A stretch of 64,000 nt of DNA, taken from positions 558,001 to 622,000 of the forward strand of contig NZ_AP022583.1 of the NCBI RefSeq assembly GCF_010731635.1. The letters are read 5' to 3'. Source of the stretch: Mycobacterium noviomagense (GTDB taxonomy: Bacteria > Actinomycetota > Actinomycetes > Mycobacteriales > Mycobacteriaceae). The notes beneath the pieces were generated by a model that was given only the letters and a program-made list of their open reading frames with translations, was not told the DNA's origin and searched no databases. Positions 44,141 to 48,976 of the stretch are shown piece by piece (the first letter of the stretch is position 1; every line of letters starts with the position of its first letter). A program made the translations under genes and the position numbers.

Positions 44141-45325
44141 CTAGCTGCCGAGCGAACTTGGCTGCTCCGCCGGACTGACGGTGCGGATCCACGACAGGAT
44201 GGTGCGAACGCAGGCGCCGATGTTGCCGATCTGGCAGTGGTTGCTCGCCTGTTCGGCGGCGGTGAAGACCCGGGTGGTCACCGAGCGCGCATTTGTGAGG
44301 TTGCGCGCCTGACGGTGCAACTGAGGCAGCGGCACGTAGTGGTCGTCCGCTCCGGCGATGAGCAGCACGTCGGCCCTCACCCGCCCGGAGACCTTTCGGG
44401 TAGTCACTGCGCGGGCGGAGGCGAAAAAGTCGTACGGCGTCGCGGTCCCGGTGATGTGCATGCCCTGCCACAGCCCCCACCGGGAGACCGGGCTGCGGGC
44501 CGCTCCGATACTCGCCAAAGCGTTGAGGATGCGGCGGGCGCGGAGCGTCAGCAGGGCACGGATCACGGGTGCGGCGCCCGGTGCGATTTGCCGCCCGATG
44601 ACCTCGAGGAAGTCGTCCAGGATGTCCCATGCGACCGCGCGGCGAATGCGGGTTTCGAATGCGGCGGCGCGGATCACCAGCCCGCCGCCGAGCGAGATGC
44701 CGATCGCGGTCACGTCGTCGAGACCGTAGTGGTCGAGGACCGCGGCGACCGGCCGCTCCCATTCGTGGGTGAAGACCAGGCCGGCGTCTTCGAGGGCACT
44801 GCCTTGCCCGGGGCCTTCGAACGTCACCACCCGATGCCCCGTCGCCGCTATCGCGGTGAGCATCGGCAAGAACTCCTCGATGTAGCTGTCGAAGCCACCG
44901 AACACCACCACCGGCGGGCCCGAAGCATGCTCGGGTCGCAGATCGTAGGCAGGCAACCACGCCCCGTCATAGGGGATGCGCTCGGGCTGAACGCTGAAGT
45001 GCTCGCGCATCGTCGCCAGGAAGCGTGCCCGGGCTGCGGCCTTACGCGGATCCTGCGGCGGGATGAAGAACTCCGCCGCCCGGTCGTAGTAGGCGGCCGC
45101 GAGCGCTCGGCCCTCGGCGCGAACTCGGTTCGCCAACGCCAGAAACGCCGCAACCCAGTCCTCGTAGCTTCGCACGTCGCGTACCGCCTCTGCGATTTCG
45201 TCGCGGGCCTCGGGGCCGATCCATTCGAGCCAGCGGTTGCACTGGAAGTTCAGGCTGCGGTCGGGGTGGAACTCGTGGTACCCCGACGCGGGGCCCTGCA
45301 GGTTGAAGGCTGGCTGGTTGGTCAT
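44141..45325 (-). CDS. alpha/beta hydrolase (FrsA/DHPON-hydrolase-like)
   Basis: This 394-residue protein has a helical N-terminal cap (about 30-135) before an alpha/beta hydrolase core: VVVFGGFDSYIEEFL, FEGPGQG, GISLGGG with the nucleophile Ser, LLIAGADDHYVP with the Asp and NHCQIGN with the His. This cap-plus-core arrangement is seen in FrsA-like and 2,6-dihydropseudooxynicotine C-C hydrolases, so a carbon-carbon or ester bond may be cut. The ATG at 45325 faces a divergent TetR gene across two strong palindromes, which almost certainly regulate it. I recall no counterpart at this locus in M. tuberculosis. Confidence 0.82.
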   Translation of the reverse strand: MTNQPAFNLQGPASGYHEFHPDRSLNFQCNRWLEWIGPEARDEIAEAVRDVRSYEDWVAAFLALANRVRAEGRALAAAYYDRAAEFFIPPQDPRKAAARARFLATMREHFSVQPERIPYDGAWLPAYDLRPEHASGPPVVVFGGFDSYIEEFLPMLTAIAATGHRVVTFEGPGQGSALEDAGLVFTHEWERPVAAVLDHYGLDDVTAIGISLGGGLVIRAAAFETRIRRAVAWDILDDFLEVIGRQIAPGAAPVIRALLTLRARRILNALASIGAARSPVSRWGLWQGMHITGTATPYDFFASARAVTTRKVSGRVRADVLLIAGADDHYVPLPQLHRQARNLTNARSVTTRVFTAAEQASNHCQIGNIGACVRTILSWIRTVSPAEQPSSLGS

Positions 45326-45334
45326 GACTGCTCC

Positions 45335-45356
45335 TATCGCAGGACTACTTGCGATA
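45335..45356. promoter_or_regulatory. TetR-type operator 1 (22-base palindrome)
   Basis: TATCGCA, GGACTAC, TTGCGATA: an inverted repeat with one mismatch from the ideal. It starts 10 bases upstream of the hydrolase ATG (45325, minus strand), so binding would overlap its ribosome site or promoter. Confidence 0.8.
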
Positions 45357-45377
45357 CCGTAGCGCTGAGCCATCCGG

Positions 45378-45399
45378 TATCGCAAGTGCTCTTGCGATA
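45378..45399. promoter_or_regulatory. TetR-type operator 2 (perfect 22-base palindrome)
   Basis: TATCGCAA, GTGCTC, TTGCGATA is perfect. Its centre is 43 bases from the centre of operator 1, about four helical turns. It ends 12 bases before the TetR ATG at 45412. The inner halves of the two operators also form a 13-base inverted repeat (45347-45359 against 45375-45387). Confidence 0.85.
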
Positions 45400-45411
45400 T
45401 GGTGGTCGGCG

Positions 45412-45996
45412 ATGAAGGCAACCACCGCCAAGTTGGGCCGGCGAGGCGCGGCTGTGCGTGCGGCCGTGCTCGAGGCGACGGTCGCCGAGTTGGTCGACCA
45501 CGGCATCGACGGGGTGACCGTGGCCGCCGTGGCGGCACGCGCCGGAGTGCACGAAACCTCGGTCTACCGCCGCTGGCGCACCCGAGAAGACCTCATCGTT
45601 GACGCATTGCTTGACCGCAGCGAGACGCACATCCCGGTACCGGACACCGGATCGCTGCGAGGTGACCTGATCGAGCTGGCCCGCCGGGTGATTGGTTACC
45701 TGTCGTCGCGCATCGGCGCAGCGTTGGTGCGGATGAGCACATTGATCGTCGCGGACAAGTACCTCGACCAGGCGCGTGCCAACTTCCTGTCATCGCGGCT
45801 CGCCGCAACACGTGTGGTGGTGGACCGGGCAATCGAGCGCGGCGAGTTGCCCCCCGGCACGGACGCCGGGCTCGTCCTTGAAATGCTGGTGGCGCCGCTG
45901 CACATGCGGACGATCATGACCGGGGAACCACTGACCGACGACCTGCCCGAGCGGCTGGTCGACATCCTGCTCGACGGGCTGCGGCCGCGGCGGTAA
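45412..45996 (+). CDS. TetR family regulator divergent to the hydrolase
   Basis: This 194-residue TetR protein has an N-terminal HTH (about 12-58: AVRAAVLEATVAELVDHGID then AARAGVHETSVYRRW) and a TetR_C-type helical core. It is separated from the divergent hydrolase by 86 bases that hold two copies of one palindrome, the classic layout of a repressor that controls its neighbour and itself. The ATG at 45412 was chosen over an in-frame upstream start because that one would lie inside the operators. The effector is probably the hydrolase substrate or a precursor. Confidence 0.9.
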   Translation: MKATTAKLGRRGAAVRAAVLEATVAELVDHGIDGVTVAAVAARAGVHETSVYRRWRTREDLIVDALLDRSETHIPVPDTGSLRGDLIELARRVIGYLSSRIGAALVRMSTLIVADKYLDQARANFLSSRLAATRVVVDRAIERGELPPGTDAGLVLEMLVAPLHMRTIMTGEPLTDDLPERLVDILLDGLRPRR

Positions 45997-46043: not shown

Positions 46044-46538
46044 ATGCAGCAGGCGGAGCAAAATTGGCGCATGGAGCGGTCTGAGAAGACCATTACCCGC
46101 GGCTGGCTGGCCGTGCTGATCGGGACCGCGCTGCTGGTCGGTGGTCTCGTCGCGTTGTGCTTTCCCGTCTTCCTCGGCTCGTACGACAAGTACGGCCTCC
46201 AGATCAAGTGCGGCAACGGCTATCACGCTGAGTTGCTGCAAGCATCGCTCGACGACCAGGAATCGGCGTCCGCGCCAACCCACCCGGCAACCAGCTATGT
46301 CGATCAGTGCAACAGCGCCCTGGCGCACCGACGCGCCTGGATCGTCCCGGTGGCGGTCGCCGGCGCGCTCATCCTGGTTCCCGATCTGGTGGCCTGGGCC
46401 CGCGGCGGGTCAACCCAACCGGCTGCTGGGCCCCACGAGTGGTCGCCCGAACCGACCGAAACAGAGTTGCACGAAGCTGCGTTGCTGGATCGCCGGTGGC
46501 GATCACACCGGCCGCGACCATCAGACACCACCTTGTGA
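46044..46538 (+). CDS. small membrane protein with two transmembrane helices
   Basis: This 164-residue protein has transmembrane helices at about 21-44 and 98-117. Between them an external loop holds two cysteines (IKCGNGYH and VDQCNSAL) that could form a disulfide, then a charged C-terminal tail. No family was recognised. The start is ATG 46044 or ATG 46071 (MERSEKT). It follows the TetR gene by 47 bases on the same strand and could be cotranscribed with it. Confidence 0.65.
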   Translation: MQQAEQNWRMERSEKTITRGWLAVLIGTALLVGGLVALCFPVFLGSYDKYGLQIKCGNGYHAELLQASLDDQESASAPTHPATSYVDQCNSALAHRRAWIVPVAVAGALILVPDLVAWARGGSTQPAAGPHEWSPEPTETELHEAALLDRRWRSHRPRPSDTTL

Positions 46539-46615: not shown

Positions 46616-46651
46616 TAGTTCGACACCAGCATTCCAATCGTCGTCGAACTA
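46616..46651. terminator. possible bidirectional terminator
   Basis: TAGTTCGAC (46616-46624) and GTCGAACTA (46643-46651) form a perfect 9-base stem with an 18-base loop in the gap between two convergent genes. The right arm includes the stop codon of the minus-strand transporter. No U-tract is present on either strand. Confidence 0.4.
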
Positions 46652-48976
46652 CTCGTTCTCCTCAGGTTCCTGCACGACGTGGTATTTGGGATCGGCCATC
46701 GACAACGGGCCGTTACCGCTTTGGCGCACCTTGCCGGTGATTCGCAGCACTTGGCCCGGATGGATATCGGCACCGTGCCCGGGGTGGAAGGTGACCCGGA
46801 TGTCTCCGGTGTTGTCGCCGACGACGATCCAGCGAAACGTGCGCCGGCGCTTGGTGATTTCCTCCACTTGGCTGACGCGTCCTTCGATGGTGGCCCGGCG
46901 TCCGGGAATCAAGCCTTCGATCGTGATCACCGCCGGGGGCCGCTCGGGGTGCTCGTAGTCTTCGACGTTCTCCTGTTCGCCCTGGGCGACGCGTGCTTCG
47001 ACTCTGTCGAGTGCTCGCGCGATCCGTTGCTCAAAGCTGTCGGGGAACGCTTCTTCGATCCGTGACCGCACGTCGTAGGGCACAATCGTTGCGGCCGCAT
47101 CCGGGATCCGGCTGATGGCCCGGGCAATCTTGTCCGCGGTCCGGTCATGCAGCAGCCGGCCGAGCAGTGGTGCATAGGTTCGACGCGGCAACAGCACCGT
47201 CACGTTGGTATCCGGGTGTTCGCTCAGCGCCCGCAACACCAATTCCTGCGCCGCCCGGTTGATCTGCCGATCCGGACAGTCGACCACCCGCAGGCGGGTT
47301 TGGAGATCGAAGCGATCCCAGCGCTTGCGCAGCTGCGCGGCATGGGCCGCGTCCACCATGAAATGCACGGCGATCAGTTCGTCGGCGCGCAAGCCTCTGC
47401 CGTATCGCAACGCCTCGATCACCGCCAGGTCAACCGAACTGACGAATACGAACACGCGGTGTCGCGCATATTTCACCAATTCCGGACGATCAGTGCGGAA
47501 CATCTCGAGGATGGCTGCCTCAGCCCGGTACTCCCGGTTCAGCCGAATCAGCACGAACACCAGCGCCGGGAAGACGACCACAACCAGCCATGCCCCCTCG
47601 GTGAACTTGGCCACCGCGAAGATCCCCACCACGATCGTCGACAACACTCCCGCCGAGAAGTTGATGACCAGCTTGTGCCGCCAGCCCGGTTGCCGGTGTC
47701 TCAGATGGTGTTTGGTCATCCCGTAACCGGCCATCGCGAACCCGGTGAACACGCCGATCGCATAAAACGGCACCAGCGCGTTGACCGACCCCCCGGTGAC
47801 CACCAGCAATGCCACCGACAGTGCTGTCAGCGTGATGATGCCATTGGAGAACACCAGGCGGTGACCACGTTTCGTCAGCTGCCGCGGCAGGAAGCGGTCC
47901 TCCGCAACGAAGCTGGCCAAGGCGGGAAAACCGTTGAAACTGGTGTTGGCACCGGTGAATAGGATGGCCGCAGTCGACGCCTGGACGAGAGCATATAAAA
48001 CGTTGCCGATGATCCCGTGACCGAAAACCGCCCGGGCCACTTCGGAAAGCATCGACGGATATTCGTCGACATACGGCGTGGCGTGGGTGACGTGGGTCAG
48101 GTAGGCGACACCGGCCAACAAGAAGCCCAGAATGCACGCCATTGCGGTGAGAACCCGACGAGCGTTGAGCCCCTGTGGCTTGCGAAAGACGTTGACGGTA
48201 TTGGAAATCGCTTCGACACCGGTCAGCGACGACCCACCGTTGGCGAACGCGCGTAGCAGCACCAGGATCGTCGCGCCCATGACCAATCCACTGCCCTGGT
48301 GAACCGGCACCGCTCCGGCGATGTGCTGGGGATCGTATGTCGGTAATCCCCCGAAGACTTCGCGGATGACACCGACCACGATTGTCAGCGCAATCATCAC
48401 CACGAACGAGTACGTCGACACCGCGAACGGCAAGCCCGCTTCCCGCAGTCCCCGCAGGTTGGCGTAGCAGATCAGCAGCACCACCGCCACGGTGATTTCC
48501 AAACTGTACGGACCGAGCGCGGTTATCGCCGACACCACCGCCACCGTGCCCGCCGCCGACTGCACCGCCACTGTGACCACGTAGTCGATCAACAGTGCGG
48601 CGGCGGCGATTTGGGCCACTCTGGGCCCGAAGTTCTCCCGCGCCACCACATAGGAGCCGCCCGCTCGGGTGTATGCCATCACGACCTGGCGATACGACGC
48701 GGCCACCAACACCAGGATCAGCAAGATGACACCGGTGATCGGCAGCAACAATGCGAACGCCGCCAACCCTGCATGGGGCAGCAGCTCGATCATGATCTGT
48801 TCGGGACCGTAAGCGGTCGACGAGATCGCATCCGGCGAAAGAGCGCCCAGCGCAACGGGATTCGATAGTCTCTCGGTGCTCAGCTGTTCGCTGATCAGCG
48901 GTTTTCCGAGAAAGATGCGTTTGGCGACGTCACCAAACGACAGTGGGACGCTCAACTGGCGAGCCGATGTTGCCAC
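46649..48976 (-). CDS. KimA-like APC potassium transporter with C-terminal OB-fold
   Basis: This 775-residue APC-superfamily transporter has about twelve helices (residues about 60-495). Its N-terminal FLGKPLISEQ, SPDAISSTAYGPEQIMIELL and SYRQVVMAYTRAGGSYVV match KimA (YdaO), the c-di-AMP-controlled K+/H+ symporter of Bacillus. A universal-stress-like alpha/beta domain follows (about 510-640). The last 100 residues contain a distinct OB-fold-like beta domain (ITIEGLIPGRRATIEGRVSQ ... GDIRVTFHPGHGADI ... VLRITGKVRQ, in segments). This extra domain is not in Bacillus KimA. K+ uptake is the best guess; broader amino-acid transport is possible. Confidence 0.82.
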   Translation of the reverse strand: MATSARQLSVPLSFGDVAKRIFLGKPLISEQLSTERLSNPVALGALSPDAISSTAYGPEQIMIELLPHAGLAAFALLLPITGVILLILVLVAASYRQVVMAYTRAGGSYVVARENFGPRVAQIAAAALLIDYVVTVAVQSAAGTVAVVSAITALGPYSLEITVAVVLLICYANLRGLREAGLPFAVSTYSFVVMIALTIVVGVIREVFGGLPTYDPQHIAGAVPVHQGSGLVMGATILVLLRAFANGGSSLTGVEAISNTVNVFRKPQGLNARRVLTAMACILGFLLAGVAYLTHVTHATPYVDEYPSMLSEVARAVFGHGIIGNVLYALVQASTAAILFTGANTSFNGFPALASFVAEDRFLPRQLTKRGHRLVFSNGIITLTALSVALLVVTGGSVNALVPFYAIGVFTGFAMAGYGMTKHHLRHRQPGWRHKLVINFSAGVLSTIVVGIFAVAKFTEGAWLVVVVFPALVFVLIRLNREYRAEAAILEMFRTDRPELVKYARHRVFVFVSSVDLAVIEALRYGRGLRADELIAVHFMVDAAHAAQLRKRWDRFDLQTRLRVVDCPDRQINRAAQELVLRALSEHPDTNVTVLLPRRTYAPLLGRLLHDRTADKIARAISRIPDAAATIVPYDVRSRIEEAFPDSFEQRIARALDRVEARVAQGEQENVEDYEHPERPPAVITIEGLIPGRRATIEGRVSQVEEITKRRRTFRWIVVGDNTGDIRVTFHPGHGADIHPGQVLRITGKVRQSGNGPLSMADPKYHVVQEPEENE

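Follow-up and report, generated by a model that had tools for sequence, protein, structure and literature searches.

A gene for a TetR-family protein and a divergently transcribed alpha/beta-hydrolase gene share a short gap with two near-identical 22-bp palindromes, O1 and O2, which are predicted to be operators of the adjacent TetR protein. The pair lies in the 64,000-nt stretch of the Mycobacterium noviomagense genome analysed here, referred to below as the window. The evidence set out below makes it probable (about 0.83) that TetR represses both tetR and the hydrolase gene through O1 and O2. The locus appears to be a conserved, self-contained divergent switch of the TetR type with two operators; as a system, it is of a known kind and essentially ordinary.

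The divergent pair and its palindromes

The gap between both genes spans 86 bp (positions 45326-45411), and is flanked by tetR (45412-45996, + strand, 194 aa, ATG at 45412) and by the hydrolase gene (44141-45325, - strand, 394 aa, ATG at 45325). Predicted operator O1, TATCGCAGGACTACTTGCGATA, is situated on the hydrolase side (45335-45356) and predicted operator O2, TATCGCAAGTGCTCTTGCGATA, on the tetR side (45378-45399), neither being assigned to a strand. Their centres are 43 bp apart, and the outer 8-base arms pair at 8/8 positions in O2 and at 7/8 in O1. The two 22-bp palindromes, the length of the gap and the distance between centres are exactly as given in the initial annotation of this DNA. 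The 13-base inverted repeat that it also described, ACTTGCGATACCG / CGGTATCGCAAGT (45347-45359 / 45375-45387), can be read directly in the sequence, though 10 of its 13 bases belong to the operator arms.

Among 20,000 dinucleotide shuffles of the gap, 597 contained at least one palindrome with 7/8 arm pairs, and two non-overlapping palindromes (at least 7/8 arm pairs) appeared in five. The 64-kb window contains 58 such 22-mers, with O1 and O2 as the sole pair with like arms within 80 bp, and 100 shuffles of the window yielded no match to the consensus TATCGCAAGTNNACTTGCGATA at up to 3 mismatches. To look for a wider regulon, we scanned the 4.78-Mb genome with this consensus at the same threshold and found no site beyond O1 and O2; TetR thus appears to have one strong target locus.

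The tetR product has the domain composition of the TetR family, with Pfam matches to TetR_N (43.1 bits, cut-off 24) and TetR_C_11 (104 bits, cut-off 32). Its structural model (pLDDT 87.9) consists of ten helices, including a helix-turn-helix and a helical C-terminal domain, and its nearest folds are SCO5951, the B. cereus protein 2fq4 and the Ms6564-DNA complex; identity to the nearest solved folds is 26-34% among the best nine matches. The recognition helix reads GVHET in all ten loci that carry the motif described below. A one-to-one match between recognition helix and operator was considered and dropped: the TetR from Mycetocola also has GVHET, yet with a 21-bp form of the repeat, and among seven TetRs that have a HET helix but no accompanying hydrolase, the motif is missing from five when up to 5 mismatches are allowed. 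Since such TetRs mostly lack the motif, and others have related repeats, a HET helix is not enough to determine the operator. For the (V/I)(H/N)KT helix, four of seven distinct loci have a 23-bp repeat with at least 7/8 arm pairs.

The model of the hydrolase (pLDDT 93.2) has helices at residues 23-110 that precede the core. Its fold matches, all at 15-20% identity, are SMU_737 (3fnb), DHPON (2,6-dihydroxy-pseudo-oxynicotine) hydrolase (2jbw), AbyA5, AntI and Ayg1, like it alpha/beta-hydrolases with an N-terminal helical part; the best of them, SMU_737, is annotated as an acylaminoacyl peptidase. Residues G209, S211, G213, D328 and H363 are invariant in 43 aligned hydrolase sequences, that of the window included, and Ser211, Asp328 and His363 probably constitute the catalytic triad. 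With a GXSXG nucleophile, the Ser-Asp-His residues and the N-terminal helical domain, the enzyme has the structural hallmarks of the DHPON hydrolase/AntI/Ayg1 group. In the accessible part of one account, AntI and Ayg1-type enzymes are described as polyketide-trimming serine hydrolases whose triad is Ser-His-Asp, and AntI as working through a retro-Claisen reaction (PMC11165489). Unlike in this group, the window neighbours that were searched are not polyketide or nicotine genes; they code for a LipQ-like esterase, an aldehyde dehydrogenase and a permease, plus one ORF without a match. A plasmid search returned only distant relatives of the hydrolase (5 records, 30-33% identity). The initial annotation had proposed inducible degradation by a C-C/ester hydrolase: the enzyme class, as modeled, fits the cleavage of C-C or ester bonds, whereas the inducible degradation itself is something that we infer.

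Distribution and conservation of the motif

A motif approximating TATYGCAAGT-NN-ACTTGCGATA is present in the tetR/hydrolase gap of ten loci, the window and nine others, with two copies in eight of them and a single copy in two (G386 and an Actinomyces MAG). The initial annotation had held that absence of the motif from the same gap of relatives would speak against its proposal; we looked there and found the motif, and the proposal is not refuted by this check.

A search with the hydrolase across 396 genomes of the genus identified 18 with a match at E <= 1e-40, the own genome included. Seven of these 18 loci have TetR and the motif, in two copies in G000, G147, G162, G387, G338 and G370 and in one copy in G386, and the motif is absent from all nine that have no TetR match. 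The remaining two are G185, where a deletion has removed the gap, and G243, whose TetR is more distant and accompanied by another repeat. No genus locus in which the gap is intact, the hydrolase is present and TetR identity reaches 50% was dropped for missing a motif copy. When TetR was searched in 198 genus genomes, 123 matched at E <= 1e-20, from which 30 loci were fetched and examined for the motif; in these, TetRs 44-50% identical and not accompanied by the hydrolase mostly lack it. Locus G116 was found via its TetR (75% identity, tblastn) and keeps both sites, the hydrolase match stopping after approximately residue 66. A search of genome contigs with TetR alone found no relatives.

An alignment search with the hydrolase led to 48 named loci, at least five of which are also among the genus loci; L060, the M. 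moriokaense locus L061 and L062 correspond to G147, G370 and G162, and each was counted once. A TetR match is located beside the hydrolase in 13 of the 48, and five of these 13 have the consensus motif in the gap (up to 5 mismatches). The motif occurs in the gap of none of the 35 named loci without a TetR match, a few of which (e.g., L084) have little upstream sequence. Locus L070 contains one 5-mismatch match, ca. 3 kb downstream and outside the gap. Tsukamurella sp. 8F has two copies and one Actinomyces MAG a single one, and the gene pair is also present in Mycetocola, other Actinomyces, Gordonia, Flexivirga and an Anaerolineales MAG, with repeats that are related but different or with none passing; in particular, no repeat passed the arm-pair test in A. 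oris, Actinomyces ZJ308, Flexivirga and G243. Not included in the counts of eight and ten loci are G185, where a deletion removes the gap together with the start of each gene; G281, where the hydrolase is broken and TetR has no match; G243, the locus also listed as L093; and L021, L023, L025 and L028, which form a second subfamily with a different repeat. By these comparisons, the gene pair is conserved and present beyond mycobacteria. The idea of shared TetR operators in a self-contained two-gene unit, as initially annotated, is well supported by the conservation, by the co-occurrence with TetR and by the lack of a third genomic site at up to 3 mismatches.

The mean majority-base fraction in the eight two-operator loci, which were chosen at up to 3 mismatches to the consensus, was 0.89 for O2 and 0.875 for O1, whereas the spacer gave 0.56 and 0.49 when aligned from its two ends, figures that tilt toward the operators because the loci were picked by their match to the consensus. 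The distances between operators were 42, 42, 42, 43, 43, 44, 44 and 46 bp. As judged from these alignments, the operators stay conserved while the intervening DNA drifts.

Related palindromes accompany some TetRs from loci without the hydrolase: those of L011 and L012 have a palindrome with 4 mismatches upstream of tetR. Because such TetRs can keep a related palindrome, the repeat goes with TetR. In both loci the TetR is 47% identical and a second palindrome, with 2 mismatches, is situated ca. 2 kb away, which points to a second target. Loci L008 and L010 have a longer related repeat. From these cases, TetRs of this kind seem to address other targets through similar repeats. A distinct 22-bp palindrome, TATCGCACAT-NN-ATGTGCGATA, occurs with small variation once in each of six genus genomes (L033 and L035-L039, positions 1501-1522). 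It was considered and rejected as a site of the window TetR, being located between an IclR-type gene and another, divergent alpha/beta-hydrolase gene in L033 (by Pfam) and in L039 (by eye).

Predicted promoter layout

A scan of the gap with a generic sigma-70 consensus found no promoter, and the layout that we propose relies on comparison and not on consensus strength. Read in the hydrolase sense, the right arm of O2 is TTGCGA or TTGCAA in all eight two-operator loci; the TTGCGA of the window (45380-45385, - strand) is the predicted -35 of the hydrolase gene, occupying the same place in 8/8. The predicted -10, TACGGT (45356-45361, - strand), follows after a spacer of 18 and overlaps O1 by one base. 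A hexamer nAnnnT is found at a spacing of 17-18 from the O2 hexamer in 8/8 loci, the background being 1,780 of 37,446 positions (4.8%). In five loci this hexamer shares one base with O1, and in the others it lies one base (two loci) or three bases (Tsukamurella) before it. In the tetR sense, nAnnnT does not occur 14-22 nt downstream of the hexamer embedded in O1 in any of the eight. A Shine-Dalgarno-like GGAG for the hydrolase (45331-45334, - strand) comes directly after O1 and is found there in all eight.

On the opposite side, the last TA of O2 opens a TANNNT hexamer in all ten loci, with an in-frame ATG or GTG 6-8 nt further; G162, G338 and G386 have an additional, nearer in-frame start codon. 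The predicted -10 of tetR in the window is TATGGT (45398-45403, + strand), which starts with the last two bases of O2, and the start codon is 8 nt past it. The operator itself supplies the TA, which leaves the T and the distance to the start codon as the informative features of this -10. The sequence GCGATA occurs nine times on the plus strand of the window, with a T at the matching place in three cases, at least one of them O2 itself, and a TANNNT ending 6-8 nt before the first start is found for 9 of 137 mechanically defined ORFs of at least 150 aa. For M. tuberculosis, the available portion of a transcription study reports that 73% of primary starts have a TANNNT -10 whose centre is 7-12 bp upstream, that about half of these -10s follow an SRN, often CGN, and that 26% of the genes with a primary start are leaderless (PMC3898074). 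The end of O2, CGATA, therefore fits CGN-TANNNT, and the tetR mRNA is predicted to be leaderless because the start codon is only 8 nt after the predicted -10. The predicted transcript starts are at about 45349 (- strand) and 45412 (+ strand). In G386, a TANNNT begins at either end of the single operator, and each gene has a start codon 7 nt beyond its TANNNT.

These hexamer patterns were noticed post hoc, after looking at related loci, and the 8/8 and 10/10 counts are thus not independent tests. The operators seem to contain promoter elements, in what would be an unusually tight overlap of operator and promoter.

Proposed switch, alternatives and context

In the mechanism that we propose, TetR would be a local repressor of which one dimer binds each of O1 and O2, silencing itself and the hydrolase. 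Binding to O2, which would carry the hydrolase -35, would occupy the tetR promoter, and O1 would extend over the hydrolase -10, the transcription start and the stretch up to the ribosome site. A small ligand would bind the TetR_C_11 domain and free both sites, so that the hydrolase would be made, destroy the ligand and allow repression to resume; this ligand is probably the substrate of the hydrolase or something chemically close to it, of aromatic, beta-diketone-like or ester type. As reported in the accessible part of a study with Streptomyces, five of five divergent TetR-family genes situated less than 200 bp from their neighbour repressed that neighbour (PMC3511530).

The two sites could also act by cooperative binding or through a small DNA loop that needs a fixed helical phasing of four turns. 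The distances of 42-44 bp in seven of eight loci, close to 4.0-4.2 turns of 10.5 bp, agree with this, but we consider it unlikely, given the 46 bp in Tsukamurella and the single recognisable copy in G386 and in an Actinomyces MAG. Moreover, the -35/-10 spacing is held at 17-18 while the distance between operators drifts, and promoter geometry can thus explain the operator spacing. It is very improbable that the inverted repeats function as a hairpin at the RNA or DNA level. The 65-bp block does match its own reverse complement at 80%, as results from its being two copies of one palindrome, but the predicted transcripts would include at most part of one operator. The looping or hairpin formation suggested in the initial annotation was set aside because the bases CCG/CGG, by which the repeat reaches into the spacer, are not conserved across the aligned spacers, because the operator distance varies (42-46 bp) at constant -35/-10 spacing and because the hydrolase start is predicted inside O1.

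Autoregulation of tetR alone, or the action of another regulator, with the hydrolase expressed independently, appears improbable, less so than the hairpin and more so than phasing. It would agree with the related palindromes near TetRs without hydrolase and with G116, where TetR and both sites persist beside a truncated hydrolase match (ending at about residue 66), but this unit may simply be decaying. Against it, O1 adjoins the hydrolase GGAG and O2 holds the predicted hydrolase -35 in 8/8 loci, and the motif is absent from hydrolases without a TetR match. Repression of both genes by TetR is the reading that we favour.

The pair lies between the permease and lipQ-like genes in the window and in G185. 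Relatives supplied 11 lipQ-like loci (L108-L118). In five of these (L108-L112) the lipQ-like gene is immediately adjacent to a permease match and nothing matching the pair separates them; the other six show no permease match within their short flanks. The pair looks like a patchy cassette, situated between two genes that adjoin each other in five relatives. Six window neighbours were tested in flanks of up to 4 kb of the 48 named loci, and none matched at 1e-10 except for weak aldehyde-dehydrogenase matches (31-32%) in L065 and L077. The hydrolase and lipQ-like genes have the same direction and are 66 bp apart, making read-through into the lipQ-like and aldehyde-dehydrogenase genes possible. 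We would give somewhat less than an even chance to a broader proposal, in which the operators double as core promoter DNA, O2 providing the hydrolase -35 and, with its last TA, the leaderless tetR -10, and could not drift without promoter loss. This layout would be common to a so far uncharacterised TetR/hydrolase cassette of actinobacteria, mobile as a single unit and here placing its inducible promoter upstream of lipQ-like, aldehyde-dehydrogenase and probable proline dehydrogenase (by eye) genes.

Several other features of these regions were observed. G185 (L057 / L005) retains a remnant at the same place as in the window, with the gap and the starts of both genes missing. In G116 (L004 / L034), copies (63% and 56%) of a 155-aa ORF, the one that follows tetR in the window (46071-46538), sit on either side of the truncated hydrolase and TetR, which suggests a recombination event. 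The APC-type permease ORF (46649-48976) has a C-terminal match to an OB-fold nucleic-acid-binding domain (Pfam tRNA_anti-codon, 30.3 bits, cut-off 27), an unexpected pairing, and the lipQ-like gene match in L114 (G016) contains one in-frame TGA.

The divergent tetR-tetA control region of Tn10 carries two operators, tetO1 and tetO2. The window pair has the same elements, namely a TetR-type repressor, a divergent target and two near-identical palindromic operators in a short shared gap, and would work like the Tn10 switch. It is, however, not a tet determinant, because its target is an alpha/beta-hydrolase enzyme instead of a tetracycline efflux pump; it also differs in its 22-bp operators, TetR_C_11 ligand domain and predicted leaderless repressor mRNA. 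The divergent gap of TetR is listed as 81 bp in the available text of PMC3511530. In arrangement, gap length and palindromic motif, the pair also resembles the enzyme-linked divergent actinobacterial TetRs under the 200-bp rule, as far as described in the accessible parts of PMC3511530 and PMC4482099. The 30 motifs tabled in a survey of mycobacterial TetRs are, in its available part, from M. tuberculosis genes (PMC4482099). Literature searches by motif letters, by TetR plus enzyme and by arrangement found no account of this pair in the part of the matching papers that was covered.

What the analysis yields for this regulator-enzyme pair is a consensus for the operators, natural variants with one copy, and a predicted promoter layout. 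Identification of the TetR ligand would point to the substrate of the hydrolase, and the TetR/hydrolase pair could serve as a compact sensor.
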